A stretch of 64,000 bases of DNA from Streptomyces rapamycinicus NRRL 5491. GTDB lineage: Bacteria; Actinomycetota; Actinomycetes; Streptomycetales; Streptomycetaceae. Both the position numbers and the translations under genes were made by a program. Where the stretch lies: positions 10,726,001-10,790,000 of the forward strand of contig NZ_CP085193.1 in assembly GCF_024298965.1 (NCBI RefSeq), written 5' to 3'. Position 1 is the first letter of the stretch; each line of letters opens with the position of its first letter. This document shows, in pieces, positions 29,864 through 63,646 of the stretch. Below the pieces are notes generated by a model, which was not told the DNA's origin, made no database searches, and saw only the letters and a program-made list of their open reading frames with translations.

Positions 29864-29877
29864 AGCAAGCGCTCGGT
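29864..29877. promoter_or_regulatory. KstR2-like box upstream of the truncated LLM gene
   Basis: AGCAAGCGCTCGGT fits the mycobacterial KstR2 consensus AnCAAGnnCTTGnT with one mismatch. It lies before the F420-type LLM remnant, suggesting that gene once belonged to the same regulon as the cluster at 45-62 kb. Confidence 0.45.
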
Positions 29878-29958
29878 ATTTGGGAGGCGTGCGAGCACCC
29901 TTGTGGAGCGTACGGGCGTGACCGTGGAGGACCTGGGCAGGTGGCGATCGCGCGGGAG

Positions 29959-30639
29959 CATGCTGTGAGAGATGCCCGGGCGGCTGCCGAGCACAGCACA
30001 CGCCTGAGGCTTGGGACCGTGGTACCGGCCAACGACTACCGGCATCCCACCATTCTGGCCAAGGAAGCGGCCACCCTCGACCTCCTCGCCGAAGGCCGGT
30101 TGGAACTGGGCATTGGAGCAGGCTGGATGCGCTCCGACTACGAGCAGACCGGATTGCCGTACGATCCACCCGCGGTGCGCCTGTCCCGGTTACGCGAGGC
30201 AGTCGACGTGCTGCGTGGCGCTTGGCCAAACGAACCGTTCTCCTATCGTGGCGACCACTACCGCGTGGACAGACTGGACCTCGCGCCCCGCCCTGTCCAG
30301 CGTCCGCATCCGCCGCTGCTGATGGGCGGGGGTGGCCGGGTCATGCTGCGGTATGCGGCGCGGGAAGCCGGCATAGTCAATATCACGAACCGGACGGCAG
30401 CGGACGGACGCGGTGTCGACCCGGCCGATGTGGGGCTCGACCCGCTGCTGGCCAAGCTCGCGCTGGTCCGCGAGGCCGCGGCGGGCCGGTCACGCGCGCC
30501 CGAGATATCCGTCGCAGTCCGTGCGGTGGCCATCGGCGGACGAAGGAGTGTGCTCCACGCCGCGGTGGCGGAACACCTCGACGCTCTGCGAGGTACCCCG
30601 TCCGTACTGGAAGGCAGGACCACAGCCTCCGTCTTGTGA
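29959..30639 (+). pseudogene. F420-type LLM oxidoreductase, truncated at both ends
   Basis: Reads TRLRLGTVVPANDYRHPTIL, AKEAATLDLLAEGRLELGIG and GWMRSDYEQTG. It aligns with residues about 62-240 of the intact F420-type LLM protein at 62726-63646 (LRVGTLVLSNDYRHP, DVLSDGRLDLGLGTGWLRQD). The first 50-60 residues of the TIM barrel are missing. The C-terminus stops after PSVLEGRTTASVL, about 40 residues short. A GTG at 29941 could start a 232-residue product, but a barrel lacking these parts is unlikely to work. Confidence 0.7.
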
Positions 30640-31164
30640 TCGGGGCCGCGCCAGGTGGTCGAGGCCGTTCTCCAGTTCAGAGGGAAGGCAGCGGAAAGCA
30701 GGCGTAACGACACGGCTCATGATTCTCCGTGCTCGGAGAGGTTGCCCGCGCATCGCGTTGGTCAAGTGACCGCCCGGGTGGGAGATCCGCCGTGCGACCC
30801 CTCAGGGCGACGCCGCGCGTTCCTCGAGCTTGAGTCGTCGGGCTTGCTCGGAGGTCACTTCCGGGTGTCGATCGCAGAGTGATCGCCGCAGCAGCTCAGG
30901 GGCGGAGGGCTCGGCATCTCTTGAGAGAATCACTTGTTTCAATCACTTGACCGACTTACGTCCCCGCCCTACTGTTTTCCCACCGCAAGGGCCTCGGAGT
31001 TGGACGACACCGTCTCTGGCCCACCTGGAACAACAGACTCAGTCAGCACACGGACGTCGGCTTGCGGACTCCGCTGCGCCGCGGGTGAAGGCTGGCGCGT
31101 TCGTTGCGTATCCGCTTCTCCGCCCCCCTCCCTGTCCCTCTTCTCCTCGACGAGGAGCGCTGCA
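30640..31164. other. Gene-free leader of the MFS transporter
   Basis: 525 nt without a recognisable gene. It contains the regulated promoter at 30929-30960, about 210 nt upstream of the transporter ATG, which implies a long 5' untranslated region. No riboswitch class was recognised. Confidence 0.45.
30929..30960 (+). promoter_or_regulatory. Regulated promoter, operator family 2, site A
   Basis: ATCACTTGTT (30929-30938) followed by TCAATCACTTGACCG up to 30953. The core matches sites B and C (34746, 53952). TTGTTT (30934-30939) is positioned as a -35 element, with a -10-like TACGTC 17 nt on. The half-palindrome in the spacer is less perfect here than at B and C. Confidence 0.6.
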
Positions 31165-33972: not shown

Positions 33973-34719
33973 CTAGCGGGACGATGCGCGGGCCCTGCGT
34001 TCTGTGGCCCCCTGCAACGCATGGACGAGGCCGCCGGTGGCGAAGTCGATCAGTGCTTCGCGTCCGCCCAGCTCCTGTGGCCCGTCAGCTTCGGGCTCGT
34101 CGCCGGGAGTGCGGGCCAGGAGCAGGACGACCGCTTCGACTGCCAGCCTCCAGGTGTTTTCGAGATCGTCCGGACGTGCGTCGGGGAATGCCCGGCGCAC
34201 GAGTGCCTGCAGTCGTTCGGTGGCCGGAGTGGAAAGTGCTTCCATCTCCCGGCTGCCGCTCAGGATGAGTTGTCCCGTGATGGCGAGCCAGCGGCCGCCG
34301 CCGATATGGTCCCGTTCCAGCAGTGCGAGGTAAGGCGCCACCACCGTCTCCATGACGTCGCGAGCGTTGGGTTGTGCCTTCTGTGTCAGCAGTTGGTCAC
34401 ACCGCTCGGCGATGTCGGCGACGACGGAACGGCCGCGCCGCTCGAGTACCGCGGTGAGCAACGCTTCCCTGGAACCGAAGTGGTAGTGCACGGCGGCGGG
34501 TGCCAGGCCCGCGGCGGAGTTGACCGCGCGGATCGACACGGCCTCCACGCCCTGCTCGGCGAAAAGCTTCTCCGCCGCGTCCATCAGCGCCTCGCGAGTG
34601 GCCTCGCCGTCATGCGGACCCTTGCGGCGCTTCTTCTGATCGACCACACGCATTCCCTGGATGTCGGTTCCGGCAACGACTGTGGTCCCGACCCTATCCG
34701 TGCGCTCTTGAGTGGGCAC
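33973..34719 (-). CDS. TetR-family regulator, likely controller of operator family 2
   Basis: Up to 248 residues. Starts at GTG 34719 or ATG 34653 are possible and neither has a strong ribosome site. The HTH reads EALMDAAEKLFAEQGVEAVS, IRAVNSAAGLAPAAVHYHFG and SREALLTAVLERR. The C-terminal helical domain includes MLLARTPGDEPEADGPQELG-like linker residues near the end. It is divergent from the E1alpha operon, and the gap carries a palindromic operator inside a promoter (34746-34779). The same operator lies before the MFS and thiolase-like genes, so it most likely represses all three plus itself. Confidence 0.85.
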   Translation of the reverse strand: MPTQERTDRVGTTVVAGTDIQGMRVVDQKKRRKGPHDGEATREALMDAAEKLFAEQGVEAVSIRAVNSAAGLAPAAVHYHFGSREALLTAVLERRGRSVVADIAERCDQLLTQKAQPNARDVMETVVAPYLALLERDHIGGGRWLAITGQLILSGSREMEALSTPATERLQALVRRAFPDARPDDLENTWRLAVEAVVLLLARTPGDEPEADGPQELGGREALIDFATGGLVHALQGATERRARASSR

Positions 34720-34745
34720 CGCATCCGTTCGAATCAGTGGGCTGA

Positions 34746-34779
34746 ATCACTTGTTCCGATCAATTGATCGGCGTAATCT
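34746..34779 (+). promoter_or_regulatory. Regulated promoter, operator family 2, site B
   Basis: ATCACTTGTT, then CCGATCAATTGATCG, ending at 34770. TTGTTC (34751-34756) and TAATCT (34774-34779) are spaced 17 nt apart as -35 and -10. The perfect palindrome CGATCAATTGATCG fills the spacer. A bound repressor would exclude RNA polymerase from the E1/E2 operon. Confidence 0.75.
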
Positions 34780-34882
34780 CCTCGCAACGCGGCGGACACG
34801 GATCCCACCAGGTCTTGTGTGCCCGAACACCCCAGCACCCTTCCGCGGCAGTCCGCGCGGTTCCGATGCTCAAGGAGGCGGA

Positions 34883-35860
34883 ATGACGCCCCGCAAACGA
34901 CGGGCGACCGAAGTCGGCCCGGACCCCGAGTTCCTGCTACGGCTCTTCACCACGGTTGCCAGGGCCCGGGCCTTGGAGGACGCGCTGAGCGTTCATATCC
35001 GGGACCACGGGTTCGCCGGTTTCTGGCATCCGGGCAAGGGACAGGAGGCAGCGGCGGCAGGGGCCTGCGCCGCACTGCGCCAGGATGACTACCTCTTCTA
35101 CCAGGGGCGCGGCGCGACGTGGCCACTGGCGAAGGGGATGGGGCTTCAGCCGGTCATCGGCGATCTGCTGGGGAGGGTCACCGGTTCGACGGGTGGCAGG
35201 GGTGCGGGGGTACCCCACTGGGCCGACCCCTCGCTGGGGATCATGGGAGAGGGCGCGACCCTGGGAAGTGTCTACCCCCTGGCCGCCGGCGCCGCACTGT
35301 CGGCGAAGCTGCGCGGAACCGATCAGATCGCTCTCGCCGACTTCGGTGACGGCACCTCCCACCGCGGAACCTTCCACGAAACCTTGATCCAGTCGTCGGT
35401 GTGGAAGCTGCCGCTCATCTACTTCTGTGAGAACAACGGCATCTCGGTATCCACTCCCTTCCACGAGGTCAGTCCCACCGAGAACGTGGCCGACCGGGCC
35501 GTCGCCTACGGTGTGCCCGGTGTGATCGTGGACGGGCATGATGCCGTCGAGGTCCACCGGGCCACGGCGGAGGCGGTCGCCCGAGCCCGTGCCGGAGAGG
35601 GGCCCACCCTCATCGAGGCCAAGGTCACCAGGGTCGGCGGGCACTGGGAGGGCGATGCGCAGCAGTACCGCGCGACCGACTATCTCGACGGTTACCGGGA
35701 TCCGCTCGATGTCCTGCGGGAGCATCTCGGCGCGGAATACGAGGAGGCCGCCGACAAGATCGTCGGCGCGGCCGAGGCCGAGGTGGCGGAAGAGCTGCGT
35801 ACCGCCGAGGCGGCCGAACTACCCGACCCCGGGATCATTCTGAAGGACGTGTTCGCGTGA
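34883..35860 (+). CDS. 2-oxoacid/acetoin dehydrogenase E1 alpha subunit (AcoA-like)
   Basis: 325 residues from ATG 34883 (AAGGAGG upstream). Thiamine diphosphate motif: GDGTSHRGTFHE (from G155) to ENN about 30 residues later. Substrate-channel residues appear in GFWHPGKGQEAAAAG and YQGRGATWPLAKGM. The short alpha subunit and overall look are nearer to acetoin dehydrogenase AcoA and branched-chain E1 than to pyruvate E1. With E1beta and E2 it would cleave a 2-oxoacid or an acyloin/diketone and hand the acyl group to CoA. It is first in a seven-gene operon, and its stop overlaps the E1beta start. Confidence 0.87.
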   Translation: MTPRKRRATEVGPDPEFLLRLFTTVARARALEDALSVHIRDHGFAGFWHPGKGQEAAAAGACAALRQDDYLFYQGRGATWPLAKGMGLQPVIGDLLGRVTGSTGGRGAGVPHWADPSLGIMGEGATLGSVYPLAAGAALSAKLRGTDQIALADFGDGTSHRGTFHETLIQSSVWKLPLIYFCENNGISVSTPFHEVSPTENVADRAVAYGVPGVIVDGHDAVEVHRATAEAVARARAGEGPTLIEAKVTRVGGHWEGDAQQYRATDYLDGYRDPLDVLREHLGAEYEEAADKIVGAAEAEVAEELRTAEAAELPDPGIILKDVFA

Positions 35861-36876
35861 CTACCACGGAGACAATCCCCGCGCCCCCTGCTCAGGGCAC
35901 CGCGGTGATGACCTATCAGGCCGCTCAGGGCGCGGCGCTGGCCGAGGAGATGCGCCGCGACCCGACGGTCTTCTGCATGGGCCAGGATCTGCGCAACGGA
36001 GGCTTCTTCGGCGGCACTCGGGGCATGGTCGAGGAGTTCGGGCCCCAGCGAGTGATCGACACCGGAATCACCGAGGCGTTCATGGCCGGATGCGCGGCGG
36101 GCGCGGCGATGACCGGCATGCGGCCGGTGGTGCAGATGGGATTCGCCGACTTCTCCCTCATCGCCGGGGACGAGATTTTCCAGAAGCTCGGCAAGTGGCG
36201 GTCCATGCACGGTGGCCAGTTCGAGTTGCCCGCCGTCATCATCATGCCGATCGGACCCAGCGGTGGCGCCGGGCCGGAGCACTCGGGCTCGATGGAGATG
36301 CTGGGCATGCACTTCCCCGGGGTGAAGGTCGTCGTACCTTCCGACCCCTGGGACGCCAAGGCGTTGCTGAAGGCGGCGATCCGGGACCCCAACCCCGTGC
36401 TCTACTACCCGAGCAAGCAGCTGGACTGGAAGCGCGGGCCAGTCTCCACCGACACCGAGCACCTCGTGCCGCTGGGACAGGCCACGGTCCGCCGGGCCGG
36501 TTCAACCGCCACTGTGATCGCGTACGGGTGTATGACGCCCCGTGCCGTCGAGGCGGCCGGGATTCTCGCGCCCGAGGGGATCGAACTGGACGTCATCGAT
36601 CTGCGCACGCTCGTTCCCCTGGATCTGGACACGGTCACCACCTCCGTACTTCGCACGCACCGCGCCCTGATCGTCCACGAGGCGCCCAGGACCGCCGGGC
36701 CGGGCGCCGAGATCGCCGCCGCCATACAGGAGCGCTGCTTCTGGGACCTGGAGGCCCCCGTGATGCGCCTGGGCGCGGTGGACGCGCCCATACCGGCCAG
36801 CCGCTTCCTGGAAGAGCACTGCTTCCCGAGCGTGGACGACATCACGCGGGCCGCCCGTCGGCTCGCACACACCTGA
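35857..36876 (+). CDS. 2-oxoacid/acetoin dehydrogenase E1 beta subunit (AcoB-like)
   Basis: 339 residues. GTG 35857 overlaps the E1alpha stop (GTGA), so the subunits are translationally coupled for 1:1 assembly. Conserved blocks: RVIDTGITEAFMAGCAAGAA (with the TPP-activating Glu), VVQMGFADFSLIAGDEIFQK, then PSGGAGPEHSGSMEM, and the C-terminal transketolase domain TVIAYGCMTPRAVEAAG. It forms the alpha2beta2 E1 with the preceding gene. Confidence 0.88.
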   Translation: MTTTETIPAPPAQGTAVMTYQAAQGAALAEEMRRDPTVFCMGQDLRNGGFFGGTRGMVEEFGPQRVIDTGITEAFMAGCAAGAAMTGMRPVVQMGFADFSLIAGDEIFQKLGKWRSMHGGQFELPAVIIMPIGPSGGAGPEHSGSMEMLGMHFPGVKVVVPSDPWDAKALLKAAIRDPNPVLYYPSKQLDWKRGPVSTDTEHLVPLGQATVRRAGSTATVIAYGCMTPRAVEAAGILAPEGIELDVIDLRTLVPLDLDTVTTSVLRTHRALIVHEAPRTAGPGAEIAAAIQERCFWDLEAPVMRLGAVDAPIPASRFLEEHCFPSVDDITRAARRLAHT

Positions 36877-36908
36877 CACGCGACGCGCCGAGCAGCCGGA
36901 GACCCCAC

Positions 36909-38309
36909 ATGACGACACTGATCGACATCCGCCTGCCCCACATGGGGTCGGTTGAACGAGCGGTCATCACCGCCTGGCACAAGACCGCCGGCGACAAGGT
37001 GGCTGTTGACGACCCCCTGCTGGACGTGTCGACGGACAAGGTCGACACGGAGGTGCCCTCTCCCTCGGAGGGCACATTGGTGAGGGTCCTCGCCGAAGCA
37101 GGTCAAGAGGTGCCGGTGGGCGAGGTGATCGCCCAGTTCGCTCCGGCCCAGGCCACCGCCGAGGAGGTCGCCGCGGCCCTGGGCAGGGCAGTACAGGAGG
37201 CTCCTGTACGGGAACGGGACGTCACCGCGCCGGTGGCCACGACGCCCCGTGCGCCGGCCGCGGAGGCCCCCGCGGTATCGCCCCTGCCGGAGCAGGACGT
37301 ACGGGGAGTCTCGCTGGTCCTGGGGGCAGCCCTCCGGCACCTGGCCGCCCCGGCGATTCACAGGCCGCGGCCGGCGACCTCTCCGCTGGTACGACGCATG
37401 GCCAAGGAGGCCGGAATCGACCTCGGTGACGTCACCGGAAGTGGGCCCGGCGGACGTGTGACCAGGACTGATGTGCAACGCTATCTGGACGTGGCATCCC
37501 AGACACCTCCCGTCCGCCGGGACACACCAGCGGACACCCCGACCGTGCCGGAGCCGACGGCCACGAACACCGTCAGTTGCCCGGATGGATACCAGGATCT
37601 GCCACACGAGGCGGTGCCACACAGCCCGATCCGCAAGGCGATCGCGGCGCACATGGTGGAGTCGGTCAGCACGGCACCGCAGCTCACCGCGCAGGTCGAC
37701 GTGGACTTCTCACGCGTCATGGCGGCGCGCGAGGAGACCAACGCGGGCCGCGCCCGGCGCGGGCTGGGCAAACTCAGCCTGCTGCCCTTCGTCGCCCGTG
37801 CCGCCGTCGCGATGCTGCGCGATCATCCGGATGTGAACGGGACATTCACCGCCACGCATCTGCTGCGCTGGGGCTCTGTGAACCTCGGCATCGCCGTGGA
37901 CGCGGACTCCGGACTCTACGTACCCGTCATCCGCAACGCGCAGCGGCTCAGCCTGGAGGGTCTCGCGGACGCCATCGCCGATCTGAGCGAGCGAGCACGA
38001 GGACGCAAGCTGACGGCTCTGGACCTCGCACAGGGCACCTTCACCATCAGCAACTCCGGCAGTGTCGGCGGCGTCATCTCCACTCCGATCCTGACCCGCC
38101 CCCAGGTCGCCTCCCTCGGTGTACCCGCCGTGGTGCGACAGCCCGTGGCAGTGAGGGGGAAGGACGGTGAGGAATACGTCGCCATCAGGCCGGTCGCCCG
38201 GCTGGGACTGACCTTCGACCACCGCGCGATGGATGGCTCTGACGCCCTGCGCGCCCTGCTCTCGATCCAGCGGAATCTCCAGGAATGGCCCGCCGAAGCC
38301 TACCGATGA
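36909..38309 (+). CDS. Dihydrolipoyl acyltransferase (E2) of the 2-oxoacid dehydrogenase complex
   Basis: 466 residues. One lipoyl domain (residues 1-80, lipoyl Lys44 in DVSTDKVDTEV), a Pro/Ala-rich linker, and a peripheral-subunit-binding domain (PLVRRMAKEAGIDLGDVTGS then GPGGRVTRTDVQRYL, about 158-195). After a second linker comes the catalytic acyltransferase domain ending with FDHRAMDG (H438, D442). It transfers the acyl group from lipoate to CoA. No dihydrolipoamide dehydrogenase (E3) lies in the window, so E3 must be shared with a housekeeping complex. Confidence 0.9.
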   Translation: MTTLIDIRLPHMGSVERAVITAWHKTAGDKVAVDDPLLDVSTDKVDTEVPSPSEGTLVRVLAEAGQEVPVGEVIAQFAPAQATAEEVAAALGRAVQEAPVRERDVTAPVATTPRAPAAEAPAVSPLPEQDVRGVSLVLGAALRHLAAPAIHRPRPATSPLVRRMAKEAGIDLGDVTGSGPGGRVTRTDVQRYLDVASQTPPVRRDTPADTPTVPEPTATNTVSCPDGYQDLPHEAVPHSPIRKAIAAHMVESVSTAPQLTAQVDVDFSRVMAAREETNAGRARRGLGKLSLLPFVARAAVAMLRDHPDVNGTFTATHLLRWGSVNLGIAVDADSGLYVPVIRNAQRLSLEGLADAIADLSERARGRKLTALDLAQGTFTISNSGSVGGVISTPILTRPQVASLGVPAVVRQPVAVRGKDGEEYVAIRPVARLGLTFDHRAMDGSDALRALLSIQRNLQEWPAEAYR

Positions 38310-38328
38310 CCGCAAGGAGGAACACACG

Positions 38329-40589: not shown

Positions 40590-40644
40590 CCGCTCGCACA
40601 CCTCAGGCCGCGCACCGGCCTCCGCACCGCACTCAGGGAACGGA

Positions 40645-45900: not shown

Positions 45901-45916
45901 CCCGCACTCCTTTTCT

Positions 45917-45930: not shown

Positions 45931-45979
45931 AGGTTACCGTACGACCGTGAGCGCCGTCGAGGATCGAGGAGGCCCCCGT

Positions 45980-47428: not shown

Positions 47429-47452
47429 AGACCCCGCGAAGGAGCAGCAGCC

Positions 47453-48610
<1,158 letters not shown>

Positions 48611-48618
48611 CACGCACG

Positions 48619-48664
48619 ATCCGCCTGCCGCCGACCCGAGCGACAGGGGTGGCGGCAGGCGGAT
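48619..48664. terminator. Bidirectional terminator between fadA6 and ipdC
   Basis: A perfect 14-nt stem (ATCCGCCTGCCGCC at 48619-48632, complement at 48651-48664) with an 18-nt loop, between the convergent ends of the two operons. Confidence 0.8.
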
Positions 48665-48687
48665 TGTCCGAGGCGTCTGGCACGCGC

Positions 48688-52134: not shown

Positions 52135-52155
52135 GAGCGCATCAGCTACCTTTCT

Positions 52156-52169
52156 ACCAAGCATTTGTT
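52156..52169. promoter_or_regulatory. KstR2-like box between ipd operon and SDR pair
   Basis: ACCAAGCATTTGTT (one mismatch to AnCAAGnnCTTGnT) inside CTACCAAGCATTTGTTAG (52154-52171). It lies in the 73-nt gap between divergent operons, mirroring the box at 45917. Confidence 0.75.
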
Positions 52170-52207
52170 AGGTACCGTAGCAGCGGATCGTACGAAGCGG
52201 GAGGTTC

Positions 52208-53986: not shown

Positions 53987-54085
53987 CCGAGATGCCGGAG
54001 GGAAACGGAACTGAGGTCGTCGGCACCGTTGGCGCCCGTGCACCTCTGAGTGTGCCGTCGTCCGGCCGGCCGTGAGGAGGTCCGC

Positions 54086-55156: not shown

Positions 55157-55204
55157 GCGTCGTCGTGACACCAGAGATACGGCACCACAACGAGGGAGTG
55201 AACG

Positions 55205-55972
55205 GTGAGACGAACGGATGGAGCCGGAGAACTCGGCGGCCGGGTGGCACTGGTCACCGGAGCGGCCCGTGGCATGGGGGCAGCCGAGGCCAGGCTCCTG
55301 CACGCGGCGGGTGCCGCAGTGGTCCTCACCGATGTCCTCGGTGAGGAAGGCGCGGCGCTGGCGACGGAATTGGGCGACGACGCGCTCTTCGTCCACCACG
55401 ATGTGACCCTGGAGGCACACTGGCGGGCCGTGGTGAGCAGCGCGCTCGACCGTTTCGGACGCCTCGACATCCTGGTCAACAACGCGGGGACATACAGCAC
55501 CAGACCCCTCCTGGAGGAGACCGTCGAGCGCTTCGAGCGGCTCTACCGGGTCAATCTGATCGGGCCGTTCCTCGGCATCCAAACCGTGGCGCCGGTCCTG
55601 CGTGAGGCCGGGGGAGGGACGATCGTCAACATCTCCTCGACGGCCGGTATGACGGCTTTCCCGGAGCATGCCGCCTATGGCGCCTCCAAGTGGGCGTTGC
55701 GGGGACTGACCAGGACGGCCGCGCTGGAACTCGGACCGCACGGAATCCGGGTCAACTCCGTTTACCCGGGCGCCGTGAGCACACCGATGCTCGCCGGCGT
55801 CGTTCAGCGTGCCAAGGAGCAGAACACCGCGGGACCGTCACCACTCAGGCGGTTCGGGGAACCGCGGGAAGTGGCGGAGCTGGTGCTCTTTCTCGCGTCC
55901 GATCGCGCCTCGTACGTGAACGGAGGCGAGTTCGTCGTGGACGGAGGGACCGTCGCGGGCCGGGGCGGATGA
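55205..55972 (+). CDS. Short-chain dehydrogenase resembling 3alpha/20beta-hydroxysteroid dehydrogenase
   Basis: 255 residues from GTG 55205. Cofactor motif LVTGAARGMGAAEARLLHAA, LTDVLGEEGAALATELGD, NNAGTYSTRPLLEETVERFE, catalytic residues in NISSTAGMTAFPEHAAYGAS and KWALRGL, tail YVNGGEFVVDGGTVAGRGG. The first two blocks resemble the Streptomyces 3alpha,20beta-hydroxysteroid dehydrogenase and mycobacterial FabG3. Steroid or terpenoid alcohol oxidation is plausible. 48 nt after the thiolase-like gene, so probably co-transcribed. Confidence 0.82.
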   Translation: MRRTDGAGELGGRVALVTGAARGMGAAEARLLHAAGAAVVLTDVLGEEGAALATELGDDALFVHHDVTLEAHWRAVVSSALDRFGRLDILVNNAGTYSTRPLLEETVERFERLYRVNLIGPFLGIQTVAPVLREAGGGTIVNISSTAGMTAFPEHAAYGASKWALRGLTRTAALELGPHGIRVNSVYPGAVSTPMLAGVVQRAKEQNTAGPSPLRRFGEPREVAELVLFLASDRASYVNGGEFVVDGGTVAGRGG

Positions 55973-56000: not shown

Positions 56001-56774
56001 TCAGCCGTCTGCCCGCGATGTGCGGGTCCGGGTCGCGGTCGTCGTCTTTTTCGTGGCCGTCGTCTTCTTCGCCTTCGCCGTACTCGTGCGCTTCGCGGGG
56101 GCGCGCTTCGGCTTCTCGGGGACCCTTTCGGTGTCGCTGTCGAGCAGGCCGTGCAGGATGACCGAGAGATACTGATCCGCCAGCGCCTCTTCGGTCAGCG
56201 GGCCCTCCGGCCGGTACCAGCGGACGGAGACCCACACGGCGTCCCGGATGAAGCGGTAGACCGTATCGGGATCGAGACCGGCCCGGAAGACACCGCTGGA
56301 GATGCCTTCCTGGAGGACCGAGACCCACAGGCGCTGCGTCCGGCGCTCTTCCTCGTCGAGGTAGGCGAAGCGAGGCAGTTCGCTCAACTGCTCCCGCTCG
56401 TTCTGGATGACGGTGACGGCGGCGCGGTGCGCATGGAGGGAGGAGAAGGCGGCGGTGATCAGCTGCCGGATCGCCTCCGCCGGCTCCAGCGACCTGTCGC
56501 TGATCTCCTGGTAGCGGTCCCCGATCTCCTTCAGATAGCCCGAGACCAGCTCATGGAGGATGGTCTCCTTGGAGTCGAAATGGTGGTAAAGGCTGCCCGA
56601 CAGCACTCCCGCCGCGTCGCCGATCTCCCGAACCGTCGTCGACCGATAGCCACGTGTCGCGAAGAGATCCGCCGCGATATCGATGATGTCCTGCCTCCGA
56701 GCGGAGGTGTCGGCGGCGCGTCGGCGCCCCGCCGTGCGAGTCCGTTGGGCGGACGGTGGCTTGGTCATGGTCAT
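56001..56774 (-). CDS. Second KstR2-like TetR repressor, with a Lys/Ala/Thr-rich C-terminal tail
   Basis: 257 residues from ATG 56774 (GAGGAA upstream). The HTH reads LFATRGYRSTTVREIGDAAG then VLSGSLYHHFDSKETILHEL. The effector domain ends YRFIRDAVWVSVRWYRPEGP and DQYLSVILHGLL, even closer to mycobacterial KstR2 than the copy at 46787. After residue 220 comes a tail of about 37 residues rich in Lys, Ala and Thr (PKRAPAKRTSTAKAKKTTAT), like actinobacterial HU/histone-like tails, which could add non-specific DNA binding. Two KstR2-like boxes lie between it and the divergent LLM operon. Confidence 0.85.
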   Translation of the reverse strand: MTMTKPPSAQRTRTAGRRRAADTSARRQDIIDIAADLFATRGYRSTTVREIGDAAGVLSGSLYHHFDSKETILHELVSGYLKEIGDRYQEISDRSLEPAEAIRQLITAAFSSLHAHRAAVTVIQNEREQLSELPRFAYLDEEERRTQRLWVSVLQEGISSGVFRAGLDPDTVYRFIRDAVWVSVRWYRPEGPLTEEALADQYLSVILHGLLDSDTERVPEKPKRAPAKRTSTAKAKKTTATKKTTTATRTRTSRADG

Positions 56775-56826
56775 CGGTCCAATTCCTCGAGGCACGTCGG
56801 CCGGGCGGCGACTGCACGGCGATGAT

Positions 56827-56953
56827 ACCTAGCACTTGCTGGGGTAGAGGTCCGGTCCGTCGGCACTGACCACGGCTGCTTCCTTTGGAGCCTGTGGTCA
56901 GCGGTCTTGACAGCGCAGTCCCTCACTGAAACGCTACCAAGCAAATGCTTGCT
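56827..56953. promoter_or_regulatory. Two KstR2-like boxes in the divergent 56.8-57.1 kb gap
   Basis: ACCTAGCACTTGCT at 56827-56840 (complement fits AnCAAGnnCTTGnT with one mismatch) and AGCAAATGCTTGCT at 56940-56953 (one mismatch). They lie in the 324-nt gap between the second KstR2-like gene and the LLM-SDR-PTE-MaoC operon. One probably serves autoregulation and the other the operon. Nothing else was recognised in the gap. Confidence 0.72.
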
Positions 56954-57098
56954 ATGTCGTCGAGTCGGCGGGTTGTTCCGCCGGTGGCGATGTCTTCGGC
57001 CCCTCGCCCGGTCAGGAACGAGCCGCAGGTCACCTGAAGCGTGCCCGGCGCGGGGTCCGGAAAGCCCCAGGGACATCAATGAGGGGAGCCCTCCGCAC

Positions 57099-58301
57099 AT
57101 GGGCGCAAACGTTCGTAGCAGAATGCAGTTCGGGATTTTCCTGGGGCCGTTGCACAAGCCGTCGGGGAATCCGACATGGGACCTTGAGCGGGATCTCCAG
57201 ATGATCCAGAGGCTGGACGAACTCGGATTCGATGAGGCCTTCATCGGCGAGCACCATTCGAGCGGCTGGGAGATCATCGGCAGCCCCGAGGTGTTCATCG
57301 CCGCTGCGGCCGAGCGTACCAAGCACATCAGGCTCGCCACTGGTGTGGTGTCCCTGCCCTATCACCACCCGCTCATGGTCGCCGAACGGCTTGTGTTGCT
57401 CGACCACCTGACCCGCGGGCGGGTGACGCTCGGCGTCGGCCCGGGGGCCCTTCCTTCCGACGCGTCCATGATGGGCCTCGACTACTCCTCCCTGCGGGAG
57501 CGCATGGAGGAGTCACTCGAAGCCATCCTCGCTCTCTTGCAGGACGAGGGCACCATCGACCGCAAGACGGACTGGTTCGAACTCCGCCGTGCACAACTCC
57601 AGATGCTTCCCTACACCAGGCCGCGTCCGGAGGTCGCGGTGACCGCTGTGGCCTCGCCCTCCGGCCCACGGCTCGCCGGGCGTCTCGGCCTGCCGATGAT
57701 CGCACTCGCGGCCGGTACCCCGGCCGGCCAGAAGGTGCTTGCGGAGCACTGGCGGATCTACGAGGAGCAACTGGCGGCGGCCGGCCATCCGGCTCCGGAC
57801 CGTGCCGACTGGCGGCTGGTGAGCCCGATCCATGTGGCCCCCACCCGTGCGCAGGCCGAACACCAGGTCTCATACGCGATCGAGGACGCCGGCGGCTACT
57901 TCTTCCGCGACTCCAGCGTGCTGACCTCCGTTCTCAACGAGGCCGGACTGCCGCCGGACGCACCCAAGCTCGATGTCTTCCGTGCCTCCGGGATGGGGTG
58001 CATCGGCTCGGTTGAGGACGTCATCGAGCACATCGAACGGTTGCGGGAGCTGTCCGGCGGTTTCGGCAAGTTCCTGATCATGGTGCAGGACTGGGCCGAT
58101 CACGACGACACCCTGAAGTCCCTGGAGGTGTTCGCCCGGGAGGTCATGCCCCACTTCCAGGATTCAAACCGACGTCGGCTGGAGAACTGGAACACCTTCC
58201 ACGCCGGCGAGCCGGAGTTCCAGCGCGACCTGGCCGCCGCCGGCGCCCGCGCGCGGGAGCGGTACGAGGAGACGCGCCGCTCCGGCGACGGCACGCGATG
58301 A
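57099..58301 (+). CDS. LLM-class flavin-dependent monooxygenase
   Basis: 400 residues from ATG 57099 (GGGGAG upstream; ATG 57123 is possible). Luciferase-like TIM barrel: MQFGIFLGPLHKPSGNPTWD, EAFIGEHHSSGWEIIGSPEV, IRLATGVVSLPYHHPLMVAE and LLDHLTRGRVTLGVGPGALP. This HH-motif branch includes two-component FMNH2-dependent monooxygenases such as the limonene monooxygenase type. It could hydroxylate, epoxidise or perform Baeyer-Villiger insertion on a cyclic substrate. No flavin reductase is in the window. First gene of a four-gene operon under KstR2-like boxes. Confidence 0.83.
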   Translation: MGANVRSRMQFGIFLGPLHKPSGNPTWDLERDLQMIQRLDELGFDEAFIGEHHSSGWEIIGSPEVFIAAAAERTKHIRLATGVVSLPYHHPLMVAERLVLLDHLTRGRVTLGVGPGALPSDASMMGLDYSSLRERMEESLEAILALLQDEGTIDRKTDWFELRRAQLQMLPYTRPRPEVAVTAVASPSGPRLAGRLGLPMIALAAGTPAGQKVLAEHWRIYEEQLAAAGHPAPDRADWRLVSPIHVAPTRAQAEHQVSYAIEDAGGYFFRDSSVLTSVLNEAGLPPDAPKLDVFRASGMGCIGSVEDVIEHIERLRELSGGFGKFLIMVQDWADHDDTLKSLEVFAREVMPHFQDSNRRRLENWNTFHAGEPEFQRDLAAAGARARERYEETRRSGDGTR

Positions 58302-58342
58302 CGATGCCGTACCCGACCGGAGATGGACGAAGAGGGAGCCAT

Positions 58343-59182
58343 ATGCCTGATCTTCATGGCGCGGTGGCGCTCGTGACCGGGGCCGCGCAGGGCGTGGGAC
58401 GGGCCACCGCGCTCGCGTTCGCCGAGCGGGGTACCGCCGTCACGATCGTGGACATCAACGCCGCGGGCCTGCGTTACGTCGCTGACGAGGTAAAAGCGGT
58501 CGGCGGCGAGGTGCGCCTCGTCGTGGCGGACGTCGGCAAGGAGCCGGATGTCGCACGTTCGGTTCAGGAGACGGAGGCTGCGTTCGGCCGACTGGACATT
58601 CTGGTCAACAACGCCGTGGCGTACAACCGCGACATCGAGGGCGCGGACCTCGACGTGGTCTCCACTCCCGAAGCGGTCTGGGCGCGTACCTTCGATGTCA
58701 ATCTGCACGGTGCCACCTACGGCATCCGGCACGCCATTCCGCTGATGCTGCGCGGTGGCGGCGGTTCCATCGTCAACGTCGGCTCGACGTCCGGCTTCAG
58801 TGGCGACGTGGTGCATGTCGCCTACGCGGCGTCAATGGCGGCCAAGTATTCGCTGACGCGCTCGACAGCCACCACTCATGGCAAAGACGGCATTCGCTGC
58901 AACGCGCTGGCCACCGGGCTCATTCTCAGCCCCACGGCCAGGCAGAACCTCGATGGCGAGAAGCTGTCGGCCTATCACGACAATCTGCTGGTACCGGACT
59001 TCGCGGTGCCGGAAGACATCGCGTCCGTCATCCTCTTCCTCGCCTCCGACGCCAGCAAGTACATCAACGGCCAGACGATCATCGCGGACGGCGGCTTCCA
59101 GGCCCATCAGCCCTGGCACGCGCAGTCTCACATCGTCCATCCGGACGCCGTCGGCCATCAAGAAGGGCGAAACCGCGCATGA
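58343..59182 (+). CDS. SDR-fold protein with catalytic Lys replaced by Met
   Basis: 279 residues from ATG 58343 (AGAGGGA upstream). Cofactor motif LVTGAAQGVGRATALAFAER and NNAVAYNRDIEGADLD. In the active-site segment the Tyr is present (Y161 in VAYAASMAAK), but the Lys expected four residues later is Met165. The ending KYINGQTIIADGGFQAHQPW is normal. Loss of the YxxxK Lys usually abolishes or strongly lowers dehydrogenase activity. The gene is otherwise intact and coupled to the next (ATGA), so it may have another role or use K168. Confidence 0.82.
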   Translation: MPDLHGAVALVTGAAQGVGRATALAFAERGTAVTIVDINAAGLRYVADEVKAVGGEVRLVVADVGKEPDVARSVQETEAAFGRLDILVNNAVAYNRDIEGADLDVVSTPEAVWARTFDVNLHGATYGIRHAIPLMLRGGGGSIVNVGSTSGFSGDVVHVAYAASMAAKYSLTRSTATTHGKDGIRCNALATGLILSPTARQNLDGEKLSAYHDNLLVPDFAVPEDIASVILFLASDASKYINGQTIIADGGFQAHQPWHAQSHIVHPDAVGHQEGRNRA

Positions 59183-60177
59183 CGCAGAACACCGATGAAC
59201 CGGTGGTGGCGACCGCCGGCGGACCAGTCCCGGTGTCCCGGCTCGGCACCACGCTGATGCACGAGCACATCTTCGTGACCAGTCCCGAGATCCAGCAGAA
59301 CTGGCCGGACTATCCGGAACAGTGGGACGAGGAAACGCAGATCGAGGCGGCGCTGAAGAAACTCGCCGACGCCAAGGCGAACGGCATCGACACCATCGTC
59401 GACCTCACCGTGATCGGGCTGGGACGCTACGTCCCGCGGGTGAAACGGGTCGCGGAGCAGACGGACGTCAACATCGTCGTCGCCACGGGTGCCTACGTCC
59501 TGCACGACCTGCCGGTGTACTTCCATTACCGAGGCCCCGGCACACCGGCCGGGGGCCCCGACCGGATGTACGAGTTCTTCGTCCGGGACATCGAGGAGGG
59601 CGTCACCGGCACCGGCGTGCGAGCGGCGATCCTCAAATGCGTGACCGATGCGGCCGGTCTGACCCCGGACGTCGAGCGTGTCCTGCGTTCAGTGGCCCGA
59701 GCACACCGCCGCACGGGTGCGCCGATCACGACGCACACTCACGCCGGGCTCCGGCGCGGGCTGGACCAGCAACAAGTCTTCGCCAACGAAGGAGTCGACC
59801 TGAGCCGCGTGATCATCGGTCATTCCGGTGACACGGACGACTACGGATACCTCGAGGAACTCATCGCGGCGGGATCCTACCTGGGGATGGACCGCTTCGG
59901 GCTCGATACCGTCCCGTTCGGCAAACGGGTCGAGATCGTCGCGGAGATGTGCCGACGCGGCCACGCCGACAAGATGGTCCTCTCCCACGACACCTCCTGC
60001 TTCTCGGACATGTCCGATCCGGTGCGCCGCAGGGAGCTCTATCCCGACTGGCGGTGGACGCACATCCCCCAGGACGTGGTCCCGGCACTGTTGGAGCGCG
60101 GGGTGACCCAAGAGCAGATCGACCAGATGATGGTGGAGAACCCGCGGCGGATCTTCTCGCACGACGGGGGTTACTGA
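59179..60177 (+). CDS. Phosphotriesterase-family hydrolase (lactonase-like)
   Basis: 332 residues. Amidohydrolase barrel with the full binuclear metal set: H28 and H30 (LMHEHIFV), carboxylated Lys153 (AAILKCVTD), H186 (ITTHTHAG), H215 (IIGHSGDTD) and D271 (VLSHDTSC). Phosphotriesterase-like lactonases (PLLs) with this layout open lactones. Placed after an LLM monooxygenase it could hydrolyse a lactone formed by ring oxygenation. ATG 59179 overlaps the preceding stop. The exact substrate is inferred. Confidence 0.87.
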   Translation: MTQNTDEPVVATAGGPVPVSRLGTTLMHEHIFVTSPEIQQNWPDYPEQWDEETQIEAALKKLADAKANGIDTIVDLTVIGLGRYVPRVKRVAEQTDVNIVVATGAYVLHDLPVYFHYRGPGTPAGGPDRMYEFFVRDIEEGVTGTGVRAAILKCVTDAAGLTPDVERVLRSVARAHRRTGAPITTHTHAGLRRGLDQQQVFANEGVDLSRVIIGHSGDTDDYGYLEELIAAGSYLGMDRFGLDTVPFGKRVEIVAEMCRRGHADKMVLSHDTSCFSDMSDPVRRRELYPDWRWTHIPQDVVPALLERGVTQEQIDQMMVENPRRIFSHDGGY

Positions 60178-60179
60178 GC

Positions 60180-61010
60180 GTGGCTCTGGCGGACCTCGTG
60201 GGAGCCGATCTGGGGACACGGAGGATGGCGTACCGGGAGGAGGACGCCATCCTCTATGCCCTGGCGGTCGGAACCCCCGCGGACCAGCTCGACCTGGTCT
60301 TCGAACGTAACCTGCGTGTTCTGCCGACCTACGGCCTGGTCCTGGGGCTCTGGGTCGCCGACGCCGCCGGAGCGCTCGGCGCCTTCCGGCCTCAGGACGC
60401 CCTGCACGGAGCCCAGACCCTCAACGTGCACAAGCCGCTGCCGCCCGAGGGCGACATCGATGTCCACGGGCGTGTGGCGGCCGTATGGGACAAGGGGAGC
60501 GCCGCGGTGCTGGAGGTGGTGGCCGAGTGCGATCACTTCACGGCCGGATACTCGATCTTCCTGCCTCGGCAGGGCGGTTGGGGCGGCGAACGCGGCCCCT
60601 CGGCTGTCCGGGCCGATAACCCGGCCCCGGTCGGTCCCGTGTGGTCCGGCAGTTACGCCACCTCGACCCAGCAGGCTGCACTGTACCGGCTCACCGGCGA
60701 CCGCCACCTGATCCATATCGACCCGGAAGCGGCTCACGCCGCCGGCCTTCCCGGCGTCATCCTGCACGGACTGTGCACGCTCGGTATCGCGGCTCGCGAA
60801 GTTGCGGAGGCGGCGGGGGCTCGCCCCTGGGAACTCGCCTCACTGCGCGCACGGTTCACCGCGCCCGTGCGACCCGGGGACACGATCGCACTGTCCTGCC
60901 GCCGTGGCGGAGACGGTGCGATCGCGTTCACGGCCCAGGCCGCGGGGGCGACGGTGCTAAACGCGGGGTCCGCCGTTTACAGCCCTCAGGGCGCTGCAGA
61001 TCCCGGGTAA
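60180..61010 (+). CDS. MaoC-like double-hotdog enoyl-CoA hydratase 2
   Basis: 276 residues from GTG 60180, just after the lactonase stop. Two hotdog halves: LYALAVGTPADQLDLVFERN in the N-terminal half, and the hydratase-2 motif YRLTGDRHLIHIDPEAAHAA then GLPGVILHGLCTLGIAAREV in the C-terminal half (Asp and His positions kept). It hydrates 2-enoyl-CoA to (R)-3-hydroxyacyl-CoA. Its 3' end overlaps the convergent ligase gene by 25 nt. Confidence 0.87.
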   Translation: MALADLVGADLGTRRMAYREEDAILYALAVGTPADQLDLVFERNLRVLPTYGLVLGLWVADAAGALGAFRPQDALHGAQTLNVHKPLPPEGDIDVHGRVAAVWDKGSAAVLEVVAECDHFTAGYSIFLPRQGGWGGERGPSAVRADNPAPVGPVWSGSYATSTQQAALYRLTGDRHLIHIDPEAAHAAGLPGVILHGLCTLGIAAREVAEAAGARPWELASLRARFTAPVRPGDTIALSCRRGGDGAIAFTAQAAGATVLNAGSAVYSPQGAADPG

Positions 61011-62524
61011 CCGCCGCCGTCGTACTCGGCGTCGAGCAGGTCGTAGTCGGTCATGAATCCCCGCTTCGGGATCGCCTCGGCGAACACCACTGTCCGCGGC
61101 TTCTTGTAGGACGCGATGAGTGTGCGGCAGTGCTCGATGATGTCGGCCTCGCTCGCTCCGGAGCCCGGCGTGCGTGTCACGATGGCCTTCACACTCTGGC
61201 CCCAGCGGGTATCGGGTACGCCTATGACGGCCGCGTCGGCCACCCCCGGGTGCTCGCGGAGCGTGCGCTCGACCTCCGCCGCGTAGATGTTCTCGCCGCC
61301 GGATTTGATCACGCGTCCACGGGAGCCGATGAAGGTGATCGTGCCGTCGGCCTCGCGGCGCCCGAGGTCGCCAGTGTGATGCCATCCGCCTCGCTGTCGC
61401 TCGGCGTTGAGTCCGGGGCGGTCGAAGTAGCCGCTCATCACATGTGGACCACGGGCCACGATCTCACCGACCTCGCCCGTCGGCACCTCATCGCCCCTCT
61501 CATCCACCATGCGCACCTGCAGGAAGGGAGACGGGCGGCCGTGGCTGCCGATCCCCCCGATGCCCTGGCCGTTGTAGGTGGCCATGCCCGCCACCTCCGT
61601 CTGGCCGTAGCCGCCCAGCGCCCGGCCCCAGGGGCTGTTGTCCACGGAGACCATGGCATTCCAGGCGTCGTCCCCGGGGGTGACCTGGAGACTGCTGATG
61701 TCGTACCGGCGATCGGCGTTGGCCTTCGCCAGTTCGTCCACCATCTGGGGGAAGAGCAGGGCGGACTGGCATCGCTCCGCCTCGATGAGGGCACACGCCG
61801 ACACCGCGTCGAAACACGGCATGAAGACATTGGTGCCGCCTAGGTGGAAGGTCGCCGTGCAGAACATCAGGGTGCCGACGTGGTAAAGCGGGCCCGAGTT
61901 CAGATAGACGAAGCCCGGCTCGATCTGACGTTGCAGGGCCAGCGCGATGTTGTGGGTGAGAATGGCCTGCTGGCTGATGAGGGCCGCGTTGGGTCGGCTG
62001 TCGAACGCCGCGGTGTAGAGGGCCAGAACGGGTGTGGCGGGGTCGATCTCCGCCTCGGTGTCGATGTCCGGGGCGCTCCGGAGCCACTCCTCGTAGGAGT
62101 CCGGGCCGGTCCCGTCGTGCTGGATCCAGCGGGTCGGCCGGTGTTCCGCCAGCTGCCGCGCCTCGGCCAGGCGTGGGCCGAGTTCCGCTTCCTGCCAGAT
62201 CACGAGGCGCGGACGCAGGTCGTCCAGGGCAAAGGCCAGTTCCGCTCCGCCGAGCCGCCAGTTCGCCGGGCACAGGATCGCTCCGAGCTTGGCGCAGGCC
62301 AGCAGGAGTTCCAGCACCCGGAAGGAGTTCTGCCCCGCCCAGAGCACCCTGTCGCCGGCCGCGACGCCCTGGGCGGCCAGGGCGTTCGCCACCCGGTTGA
62401 CGCGGTCATCCAAGGCCGTGTAGGTCAAGCGCACCTGGCCGTCGACCACGGCCGTGGCCTGGGGACGGCCGCGTCGGTTCTCCCGCGCGATGTCGCCGAG
62501 GCTGAGCGTGTGCTGCTGATTCAT
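60986..62524 (-). CDS. Acyl-CoA ligase (FadD family)
   Basis: 512 residues from ATG 62524. ANL-family adenylating enzyme: AGQNSFRVLELLLACAKLGA, GPLYHVGTLMFCTATFHLGG, the A5-type motif GRALGGYGQTEVAGM, GWHHTGDLGRREADGTITFI and GRVIKSGGENIYAAEVERTL, and near the C-terminus the catalytic Lys in IPKRGFM. The P-loop (normally S/TSGTTGxPK) is weak here: YTAAFDSRPNAALISQQ. Some FadD proteins share this variation. It is the likely activation step (acid to CoA ester) and a candidate counterpart of mycobacterial FadD3. A KstR2-like box lies upstream. Confidence 0.85.
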   Translation of the reverse strand: MNQQHTLSLGDIARENRRGRPQATAVVDGQVRLTYTALDDRVNRVANALAAQGVAAGDRVLWAGQNSFRVLELLLACAKLGAILCPANWRLGGAELAFALDDLRPRLVIWQEAELGPRLAEARQLAEHRPTRWIQHDGTGPDSYEEWLRSAPDIDTEAEIDPATPVLALYTAAFDSRPNAALISQQAILTHNIALALQRQIEPGFVYLNSGPLYHVGTLMFCTATFHLGGTNVFMPCFDAVSACALIEAERCQSALLFPQMVDELAKANADRRYDISSLQVTPGDDAWNAMVSVDNSPWGRALGGYGQTEVAGMATYNGQGIGGIGSHGRPSPFLQVRMVDERGDEVPTGEVGEIVARGPHVMSGYFDRPGLNAERQRGGWHHTGDLGRREADGTITFIGSRGRVIKSGGENIYAAEVERTLREHPGVADAAVIGVPDTRWGQSVKAIVTRTPGSGASEADIIEHCRTLIASYKKPRTVVFAEAIPKRGFMTDYDLLDAEYDGGGYPGSAAP

Positions 62525-62587
62525 CTCTTCACCCTCCCGAGGTCCGGGCCTCGATCTACCGAGGTCCGGGCCTCGATAGTCTTATCA

Positions 62588-62601
62588 ACCAAGCGATAGT
62601 T
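62588..62601. promoter_or_regulatory. Weak KstR2-like box between ligase and LLM gene
   Basis: ACCAAGCGATAGTT matches AnCAAGnnCTTGnT with two mismatches. It lies in the gap between the divergent ligase (start 62524) and LLM oxidoreductase (start 62726). Confidence 0.5.
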
Positions 62602-62725
62602 CAAGTAGCATGAAGCGGCCCGATCGCTGAAGAGGACGCGCTCATATGCCCGCCGCCCCAGGAGCAGGTGCCGAAACCTGTACGGGCACGGGATCGGGCG
62701 TCTTCCCCACCCCGAAGGAGACGCA

Positions 62726-63646
62726 GTGGCAGGACATCGCCCCTTCCGATTCGCCGCCGTGGTCCGGCAGACGGATTCCGCCAAGGCATGGGCCGAGCGG
62801 GCCCGGCTGCTGGAGGATTCCGGTTTCTCGGCACTGCTGGTCCCGGACCACTTCATCGGTCCACGTTTCGCACCCTTGCCGGCCATGGCCGCCGCCGCTG
62901 CCGCCACGACCACGTTGCGGGTTGGCACGCTGGTGCTCTCGAACGACTACCGCCATCCGGTAGCCCTCGCGAAGGAGGCAGCGACCCTCGACGTGCTCTC
63001 TGACGGTCGGCTCGACCTCGGACTCGGCACCGGCTGGCTGCGGCAGGACTACGACCGCTCGGGCGTGGCTTTCGACCCCCCCAAGGTGCGCTTCGAAAGG
63101 TTCCAGGAGGCGGTGCGGATACTCAAGGGACTCTGGGGCGAAGGCCCCTTCTCCTTCCGGGGCCAGTACTACCGGATCGATGAGCTCGACCAGGAACCAC
63201 GCCCGGTCCGGCGCCCGCACCCCCGATTGCTCTTCCCCGGTGGCGGGCCGCGGATGCTGCGGTTCGCCGCCGCCGAAGCCGACTCCATCAATTTCGCCCT
63301 GCAGGTCAAGGCAGATGGCTCCGGCCCCGACCAACGGGACGGCGGGCTCGCCGCCTTCCTGAAGAAGATCGACATTGTCAGGGAAGCCGCGGGGGAGCGC
63401 TTCGACCGGATCGAGCTGGGGACGAGCGTTCAGCAGCTCGGTGTGGGGGTGAAGAAGGAGGAGTGGAGCTACGCCAATACCTCCCAGCAGAGCGAGACCC
63501 CGCAGGTGCTGGTCGGCGGGCTCGACGAGATCGTCGAGAAGCTGCGCTACTGGCGTGACGAACACGGCCTCTCGTACTTCGTACTGCACAACGACAAGGA
63601 CCTCGACGCCTTCATCCCGGTCGTCGCCGCGCTCGCGGGTACGTGA
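62726..63646 (+). CDS. F420-type LLM-class oxidoreductase
   Basis: 306 residues from GTG 62726 with GAAGGAGA upstream. Luciferase-like barrel of the F420-dependent branch: RFAAVVRQTDSAKAWAERAR, LLVPDHFIGPRFAPLPAMAA, LRVGTLVLSNDYRHPVALAK and SDGRLDLGLGTGWLRQDYDR. The C-terminal YFVLHNDKDLDAFIPVVAAL closes the barrel. It may oxidise an alcohol or reduce an enone using F420. A shortened relative is at 29959-30639. Regulated with the ligase, by position. Confidence 0.85.
   Translation: MAGHRPFRFAAVVRQTDSAKAWAERARLLEDSGFSALLVPDHFIGPRFAPLPAMAAAAAATTTLRVGTLVLSNDYRHPVALAKEAATLDVLSDGRLDLGLGTGWLRQDYDRSGVAFDPPKVRFERFQEAVRILKGLWGEGPFSFRGQYYRIDELDQEPRPVRRPHPRLLFPGGGPRMLRFAAAEADSINFALQVKADGSGPDQRDGGLAAFLKKIDIVREAAGERFDRIELGTSVQQLGVGVKKEEWSYANTSQQSETPQVLVGGLDEIVEKLRYWRDEHGLSYFVLHNDKDLDAFIPVVAALAGT

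Follow-up and report, generated by a model that had tools for sequence, protein, structure and literature searches.

An ipd cluster for steroid rings C/D in Streptomyces rapamycinicus and an apparent second KstR2-type regulon around it

The window considered here is a 64,000-nucleotide stretch of Streptomyces rapamycinicus NRRL 5491 (C1:10726001-10790000, C1 being the single contig of the 12.47-Mb genome); coordinates without a prefix are window positions. At 42,894-53,907 it contains a genuine KstR2/ipd cluster, the gene set of the HIP pathway by which steroid rings C/D are degraded. Around this core extends an island of 70 kb, from 29.8 kb to approximately 35 kb beyond the window end, which encodes a second KstR2 homologue, KstR2b, and carries KstR2-type palindromes, referred to below as boxes. 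Part of what the original prediction described as foreign modules enlarging one steroid-ring regulon looks, judging from genes and boxes, like a second regulon.

The ipd core and its distribution

The core comprises the following genes and candidate operators.

42894-43886 (-): IpdE2-like small acyl-CoA dehydrogenase subunit (NF050027, E 4e-35, 122 bits against a cut-off of 450)
43883-45052 (-): IpdE1-like acyl-CoA dehydrogenase subunit (best PDB 4x28_A, 151 bits; 6wy9 Tcur3483, 148 bits)
45052-45921 (-): enoyl-CoA hydratase EchA, NF006140 (PRK08290; 450 bits, cut-off 280)
45917-45930: candidate KstR2-type operator CTAACAAGTGTTTGGTAG, echA/ipdF promoter
45926-46771 (+): ipdF, short-chain dehydrogenase/reductase (SDR; NF005880, 441 bits, cut-off 336)
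46787-47428 (+): kstR2, TetR-type repressor of the core (PDB 2ibd, 231 bits; 4w97 KstR2, 196 bits)
47453-48610 (+): fadA6, thiolase (NF005865, 694 bits, cut-off 591)
48688-49752 (-): ipdC, FabK-like flavoprotein (FabK family, 255 bits, under the cut-off of 453)
49749-50591 (-): ipdB (PDB 6co6_B, 313 bits)
50588-51454 (-): ipdA (PDB 6co6_A, 317 bits, against 87 for glutaconate CoA-transferase)
51367-52164 (-): echA20 (NF005925, 418 bits, cut-off 260)
52156-52169: candidate KstR2-type operator CTACCAAGCATTTGTTAG, echA20/Rv3549c-like promoter
52208-52993 (+): Rv3549c-like SDR (NF005893, 386 bits, cut-off 255)
52990-53907 (+): Rv3548c-like SDR, right edge of the conserved core (NF005861, 490 bits, cut-off 373)

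We take PDB entries 6co6 and 2ibd to originate from Rhodococcus jostii RHA1, and 4w97 from M. tuberculosis. The NCBIfam and PDB matches bear out the originally predicted order ipdF-kstR2-fadA6 and the divergent ipdC-ipdB-ipdA-echA20/Rv3549c-like/Rv3548c-like block, and the homologues from ipdF to Rv3548c lie in the mycobacterial layout, for which genomes G367, G441 and G331 served as reference; these carry a wider steroid gene set, and we infer that they are mycobacterial. IpdAB resembles the IpdAB structures more than it does CoA-transferases, and its subunit B has Gly where the catalytic Glu would be: IpdB retains the TDGEA motif, with Gly at the CoA-transferase Glu position, a residue rule given in PMC5380842. 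Beyond the genes named in the original prediction, the core also includes the IpdE1/IpdE2-type pair (42894-45052, -) and the NF006140 EchA (45052-45921, -). The latter is, in our reading, possibly EchA13-type, and Crowe et al. 2017 (PMC5380842) tie an echA13 gene of the HIP cluster to cholate degradation. FadE30 was not found in the core between echA and ipdF.

Both divergent core promoters carry a candidate KstR2-type operator (boxes 45917 and 52156). The published KstR2 motif is AnCAAGnnCTTGnT. No site of the window has the exact core CAAGNNCTTG, each differing from it by one mismatch; the core promoters of G367, G441 and G331 have sites such as AGCAAGTGCTTGGT and AGCAAGCACTTGCT. The 18-mer seen at the window's CTAACAAGTGTTTGGTAG recurs identically in 11 of 13 other Streptomyces clusters, placed before ipdF or, where present, fadE30, and the second box has a counterpart at the same place in G165. 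The called start of echA20 overlaps the operator, and the real start probably lies further downstream. The accessible portions of PMC7807495 and PMC6593523 print no KstR2 consensus.

Comparison with these 13 clusters (40 kb each) delimits the core, since no region other than 42,894-53,907 recurs in them. Within it, identity ranges from 55 to 93% for the IpdE2-like protein, 71 to 95% for the IpdE1-like protein and 70 to 95% for the ipdC product. The NF006140 EchA and FadE30 occur together in six of the clusters, FadE30 being absent from the other seven; the Rv3549c-like SDR was not found in place in two (G204, G005).

The pathway was originally described as known mainly from mycobacteria, rhodococci and proteobacteria. 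It is not rare in Streptomyces: 209 of the 295 Streptomyces genomes searched possess IpdA (E <= 1e-60), compared with 24 of 246 genomes phylum-wide (E <= 1e-40). The closest other IpdA proteins are those of Streptomyces malaysiensis and S. asiaticus (98%), and among the best 120 IpdA matches all organism-named entries are Streptomyces. Five genomes (G152, G169, G240, G244, G286) have divergent IpdA matches only (best E 1e-71 to 2e-85), perhaps from another source. The genus has been counted as nearly devoid of steroid pathways, 55 of 57 genomes lacking them according to PMC4810484; HIP metabolites of Streptomyces rubescens were the subject of a 1977 Biochem J paper, cited in PMC5380842. Searches of open-licence PMC papers yielded no account of a stand-alone ipd cluster across Streptomyces or of a second KstR2 island.

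The ring A/B steroid enzymes, said to be absent from the window, are indeed recognised nowhere among its scanned genes. The genome search that the original prediction proposed gave the same picture: no close KstD, KshA or HsaC orthologue, and no complete 9,10-seco pathway, was found in this genome. The best KstD match reaches 110 bits against a cut-off of 788, and HsaC has no match at E <= 1e-40. The searches recover such genes in other Streptomyces. Among the 13 clusters, three have ring A/B genes beside the core and served as positive controls (G268 and G076, with KstD, KshA and HsaC all recovered; G289, with KshA at 58% and KstD at 38%), and in the other ten no ring A/B gene was found within 40 kb (38% identity, 50% coverage). 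It is improbable in our opinion that the strain is a normal, complete steroid degrader with ring A/B genes diverged beyond recognition. Weak KshA-like (24%, E 2e-19) and KstD-like (30%, E 2e-22) proteins, encoded at 10.103 and 11.978 Mb, would fit such an organism, but other Streptomyces show clear homologues near the core (KshA 57-58%, KstD 38-49%, HsaC 50%). By the same comparison neither weak protein was accepted as KshA or KstD.

A lower pathway without HsaC is common in Streptomyces. The HsaC profile (NF045631) matched 77 of the 295 genomes at E <= 1e-40. A gap between 3e-99 and 7e-86 sets off an HsaC class of 26 genomes (best match E <= 3.1e-99), all of which have IpdA, while the 51 weaker genomes (best E 7e-86 to 1e-40) were dropped; G224, with a partial-length near-match on its IpdA contig, was left out of the 26. 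This places 183 of the 209 IpdA-positive genomes outside the HsaC class, and counting all 77 as positive still leaves at least 132 without HsaC.

The entry ligase is present, although outside the cluster: a FadD3 orthologue is encoded at C1:5100759-5102324 (775 bits, cut-off 657). With profile NF005801, 205 genomes form a strong FadD3 class (E <= 4.3e-166; 204 above the curated cut-off), no background match being better than 2e-132. IpdA and FadD3 occur together in 202 of the 295 genomes, IpdA alone in 7, FadD3 alone in 3 (two of them just 78-79% complete) and neither in 83. The orthologue and this co-occurrence suggest that HIP-type acids enter the core, which is probably fed, as far as gene content tells, through the ligase encoded mid-chromosome. 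The earlier idea that the substrate may be a non-steroid compound, such as a bicyclic terpenoid, is so far not supported. Coronafacic-acid-like and hopanoid substrates were considered as well, and nothing speaks for or against them. The FadD3 gene belongs to a central locus of approximately 35 kb (C1:5.100-5.137 Mb), kept in G023, G247 and G159, with two Ltp2-type thiolases, a ChsH2-type OB protein, several acyl-CoA dehydrogenases, a FadE30 homologue and an SDR. The ligase encoded within the window (60986-62524) was considered as a FadD3 orthologue and rejected (232 bits, cut-off 657).

KstR2b, the boxes and the island

Features of the window outside the core are listed next; box scores are those of the matrix described below, and untrained boxes are those from which it was not built.

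29782-29877: two boxes (29782, 17.3 bits, untrained; 29864, 21.2 bits) upstream of LLM1, island left edge
29941-30639 (+): LLM1, luciferase-like monooxygenase (LLM; TIGR03621, 180 bits, under the cut-off of 213)
33973-42791: TetR, E1 alpha/beta, E2, thiolase, APH, ACAD11-like and enoyl-CoA hydratase genes, probably outside the regulon
54050-55972 (+): thiolase and SDR between the core and kstR2b, membership unsure (best box 53948, 9.3 bits)
56001-56795 (-): kstR2b, second KstR2 homologue (PDB 4w97 KstR2, 209 bits)
56827-56953: two KstR2-type boxes (56827, 18.4 bits; 56940, 23.9 bits; both training sites), kstR2b/LLM2 promoter
56907-58301 (+): LLM2, luciferase-like monooxygenase (best PDB 4uwm, 3,6-diketocamphane 1,6-monooxygenase, 108 bits); the real start probably lies past the 56940 box
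58298-59182 (+): SDR of the LLM2 operon (several SDR families, including 7alpha-HSDH at 179 bits; those listed are under cut-off)
59179-60177 (+): phosphotriesterase-like protein, possible lactonase (PDB 4if2, 'phosphotriesterase homology protein', 453 bits)
60174-61010 (+): MaoC/MFE-2-type hydratase, start approximate (PF01575 and PF22622 in open reading frame 59949-61010)
60986-62524 (-): acyl-CoA ligase (FadD; 3 of 23 loci have a 55-57% homologue close to a KstR2b-type gene)
62588-62601: KstR2-type box (18.7 bits, untrained), FadD/LLM3 promoter
62726-63646 (+): LLM3 (PF00296, 156 bits)

The E1/E2, APH, ACAD11-like, LLM, phosphotriesterase-like and MaoC genes of the original prediction are thus all present. 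The right arm of the island, beyond the window (10790001-10826500), encodes Ltp2-type thiolases, ADP-forming-ligase-like and HyuA-like proteins, a FadE30 homologue (C1:10811270-10812418; 64% against the G367 protein), three proteins that score below their cut-offs, namely an HsaB-like reductase (170 against 230 bits), a FadD3-family ligase (573 against 657) and an IpdE2-like dehydrogenase (214 against 450), and also MFS, SDR, aldehyde dehydrogenase and alpha/beta hydrolase proteins. Four more LLM genes lie there, one (L120:19190) by similarity only; one LLM of this arm exceeds a subfamily-domain cut-off (TIGR03619, 213 bits). In addition, L120:16595-19069 (-) is a single 824-aa frame in which an AMP-forming acyl-CoA ligase is fused with a luciferase-like monooxygenase domain.

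KstR2-type palindromes occur at five promoter regions of the window, and it is their clustering, not their number, that is unusual. When up to one mismatch is allowed, the pattern ANCAAGYRCTTGNT occurs 53 times in the genome and the reversed control 52 times, so there is no genome-wide excess. At least 16 of the 53, including all four exact ones, fall within 69.6 kb (10755864-10825469), where an even spread would place 0.3. A matrix built from those 16 sites and applied to 124 kb finds 19 non-overlapping sites at 17 bits or more, three of them untrained; 18 of the 19 lie no more than 200 bp from a called gene start. At 12 bits or more there are 23 positions in the 124 kb against 0.3 in Markov simulations; the simulated maximum is 15.0 bits (10 runs), and the maximum in five other genome stretches (160 kb) is 10.0 bits. 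Boxes 29782 and 83134 (the latter in coordinates extended beyond the window), 53 kb apart, share 17 of 18 bases and precede LLM1 and the ligase-LLM fusion, respectively, which suggests a duplicated promoter region.

If the flanking modules were chance neighbours and their palindromes not operators, the core would be the sole regulon. The lack of a genome-wide excess would agree with this, as would the 13 other clusters, in which no flanking gene was found beside the core except, in G165, one SDR and a remnant of kstR2b; to that extent the modules are, as predicted, foreign to the usual surroundings of the core. The boxes nevertheless cluster at promoters, with a KstR2 homologue among them, and we regard this explanation as very improbable indeed.

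KstR2b matches the KstR2 structure over the whole domain with the helix-turn-helix conserved, and its best non-KstR2 PDB entry reaches only 80 bits; it shares 46% identity with the core KstR2. In a 98-sequence tree (midpoint root for drawing only), the core KstR2 groups with other Streptomyces KstR2s (15 rows, support 100/100), while KstR2b falls in a separate set (32 rows, 100/99), nearest to three Actinophytocola loci and a Rhodococcus metagenome-assembled genome (100/96). By this tree it is neither an orthologue of the Streptomyces core KstR2 nor a recent copy of it. Its own entry (10 contigs) aside, the best of the matches listed is a Streptomyces spiralis protein with 68% identity. The contig scan gave 80 loci, none with Streptomyces in its title, but it may omit near relatives of the genome studied, and the core KstR2 of one locus with the title Microtetraspora glauca is the same as that of Streptomyces G076.

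The related loci bear on whether the island serves the core at all. In 23 of the 80, from Actinomadura, Nocardiopsis, Nonomuraea and Actinoallomurus, the fetched DNA holds no ipd core gene, and the closest solved relative of LLM2 is a camphor-pathway monooxygenase. Both would be expected if the core alone used HIP from other bacteria and the KstR2b island degraded something unrelated to it, such as a monoterpenoid, that is never channelled into the core. Against this stand the FadE30-, FadD3-, IpdE2- and HsaB-like genes of the island, its KstR2-type boxes, and the presence of IpdA in 27 of the 28 genomes with KstR2b-set regulators, including 22 of the 23 without a nearby ipd core; an island unconnected with the core is in our opinion unlikely. 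Homologues of the island Ltp, LLM, HsaB-like, FadD or SDR proteins each occur in 3-8 of the 23 loci, and the 410-bp segment at the regulator gene start contains a perfect box in 13 and a 9/10 box in 5 of them, whereas 1.3% of random segments contain a perfect box.

The claim of one enlarged regulon stands in part: the boxes in the flanks and the second KstR2 homologue agree with it, and the AcoAB-like E1/E2 and APH/ACAD11 genes (34.7-42.8 kb) do not. Between 30,925 and 45,917 no box scores as high as 9.3 bits, and these genes, which have their own adjoining TetR gene and were not found beside the core in the 13 other clusters, are therefore probably outside the regulon. The E1/E2-APH-ACAD11 operon was accordingly rejected as a member, and 33973-42791 is probably a separate catabolic operon.

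As to the history of the island, the closest of the 295 genomes is G165 (IpdA 92%). There the core is directly followed by a 123-bp piece matching the 3' end of kstR2b at 84% identity; next comes the SDR found here at 84.35-85.16 kb. Its 40 kb show no further nucleotide match to the island, and apart from the pair in the core it has a single box scoring at least 9/10, at 6.7 kb. An insertion of the island after the split from G165 was considered and rejected in view of the kstR2b remnant. More probably kstR2b and that SDR predate the split, and G165 has lost the intervening stretches. G165 has the appearance of a decayed version of the island, with its kstR2b remnant and an internally deleted NF006140 EchA (the alignment skips from 45263 to 45906). 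A foreign origin of the island is presumed.

Left of the island, window 23245-26859 (+) encodes a 1204-aa NACHT protein whose N-terminal domain is NNH1 and which also matches leucine-rich repeats; it resembles bacterial NLR-type defence proteins. In the same part of the window, 20303-21382 (-) encodes a PP2C phosphatase domain fused to a MerR-type DNA-binding domain.

A proposed two-layer explanation and known systems

We consider it probable that the locus has two layers, a core lower pathway and a surrounding island controlled by KstR2b. In the core, HIP-CoA with a shortened side chain would be processed by IpdF and IpdC, then by EchA20 (ring D) and IpdAB (ring C), with thiolysis by FadA6, as published for mycobacteria. 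In this way streptomycetes could probably live on hydrindane acids of the HIP type that other steroid degraders release. KstR2b would control the island through CAAGYRCTTG boxes at about a dozen promoter regions. The island would contribute LLMs, a flavin reductase resembling HsaB, a possible lactonase, ligases of which one is FadD3-like, dehydrogenases resembling FadE30 and IpdE2, and thiolases of the Ltp2 type. It would probably oxidise rings or side chains that bear a ketone, in a compound derived from a steroid or terpenoid, and pass hydrindane acyl-CoAs on to the core. The assignment of repressor to boxes, the flow from island to core and the substrate are all what we infer.

On its gene content, the island is likely to be a feeder route of the Baeyer-Villiger monooxygenase type into ring C/D degradation; PMC12239570 describes an LLM of Caenibius with Baeyer-Villiger activity on progesterone. 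A bolder proposal can be put forward only tentatively, namely that the island is an alternative upper pathway without KstD, KshAB and HsaACD, in which FMN-dependent LLM Baeyer-Villiger oxygenases and a lactonase open rings or side chains bearing ketones, in a steroid or another polycyclic terpenoid, and supply hydrindane acyl-CoAs to the core, itself a widespread stand-alone HIP pathway.

Several points weigh against the two-layer explanation. With regard to the boxes, the pattern was picked after initial inspection of boxes in this DNA, 16 of the 19 matrix sites are training sites, and the core KstR2 may bind the island boxes also; 5 of the 23 related loci have a best box of only 8/10, and the branch of KstR2b is long (1.05). 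The central FadD3 locus has no exact box in this genome, G023, G247 or G159, and the Fisher p of 1e-60 for co-occurrence of IpdA and FadD3 ignores phylogeny. The LLMs match generic families under curated cut-offs and need not be Baeyer-Villiger enzymes. The G+C content of the island (0.67-0.69) is no lower than that of the DNA to its left (0.67), the core being at 0.70, which makes G+C a poor guide to the origin of the island. Finally, the ring A/B survey across the 295 genomes covered HsaC alone, with none of them reaching the curated HsaC cut-off, and the single KshA_C match in this genome (65 bits) is above the Pfam cut-off of 23.3.

A stand-alone lower half predicts soil cross-feeding on half-degraded steroids, or else the use of some other hydrindane substrate. 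The island hints that a regulator of the KstR2 type has been taken over to control a different set of genes, and its genes and boxes make up a candidate list for a feeder pathway independent of rings A/B.

Among known systems, the Mycobacterium/Rhodococcus KstR2 HIP cluster (PMC5380842) shares with the core its genes, divergent layout, KstR2, operators of the CAAGnnCTTG type and an IpdAB without the transferase Glu. It differs in that the core described here has no FadD3 or FadE30, FadD3 being far off in the chromosome; in that the genome has no close KstD, KshA or HsaC; and in the CTAACAAGTGTTTGGTAG form of the operator and the further set of KstR2-type boxes surrounding the core. A minority of Streptomyces possess complete steroid clusters (G268, G076; G289) with a homologous ipd core, but these carry KshA, KshB, Hsa genes and KstD (38% in G289) near it, and the window does not. 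Six KstR2b-type modules of Actinomadura, Nocardiopsis and Actinoallomurus (L148, L173, L181, L191, L197, L213) have a regulator in the same tree set, an LLM (64-71%), an Ltp-type thiolase (59-64%) and, in three, a FadD (55-57%); the fetched DNA of all six contains no ipd core gene, IpdA being encoded elsewhere in the genome, and two of the six have a perfect box at the regulator. The type II Baeyer-Villiger monooxygenases (diketocamphane monooxygenases and the Caenibius pdc LLM of PMC12239570) belong to the same LLM family, and here too a flavin reductase gene is present in the island; the difference is that several predicted LLMs and a possible lactonase lie here behind KstR2-type boxes. The distance from known systems is moderate, since both the enzymes and the regulator family are familiar and what is new is how they are arranged.

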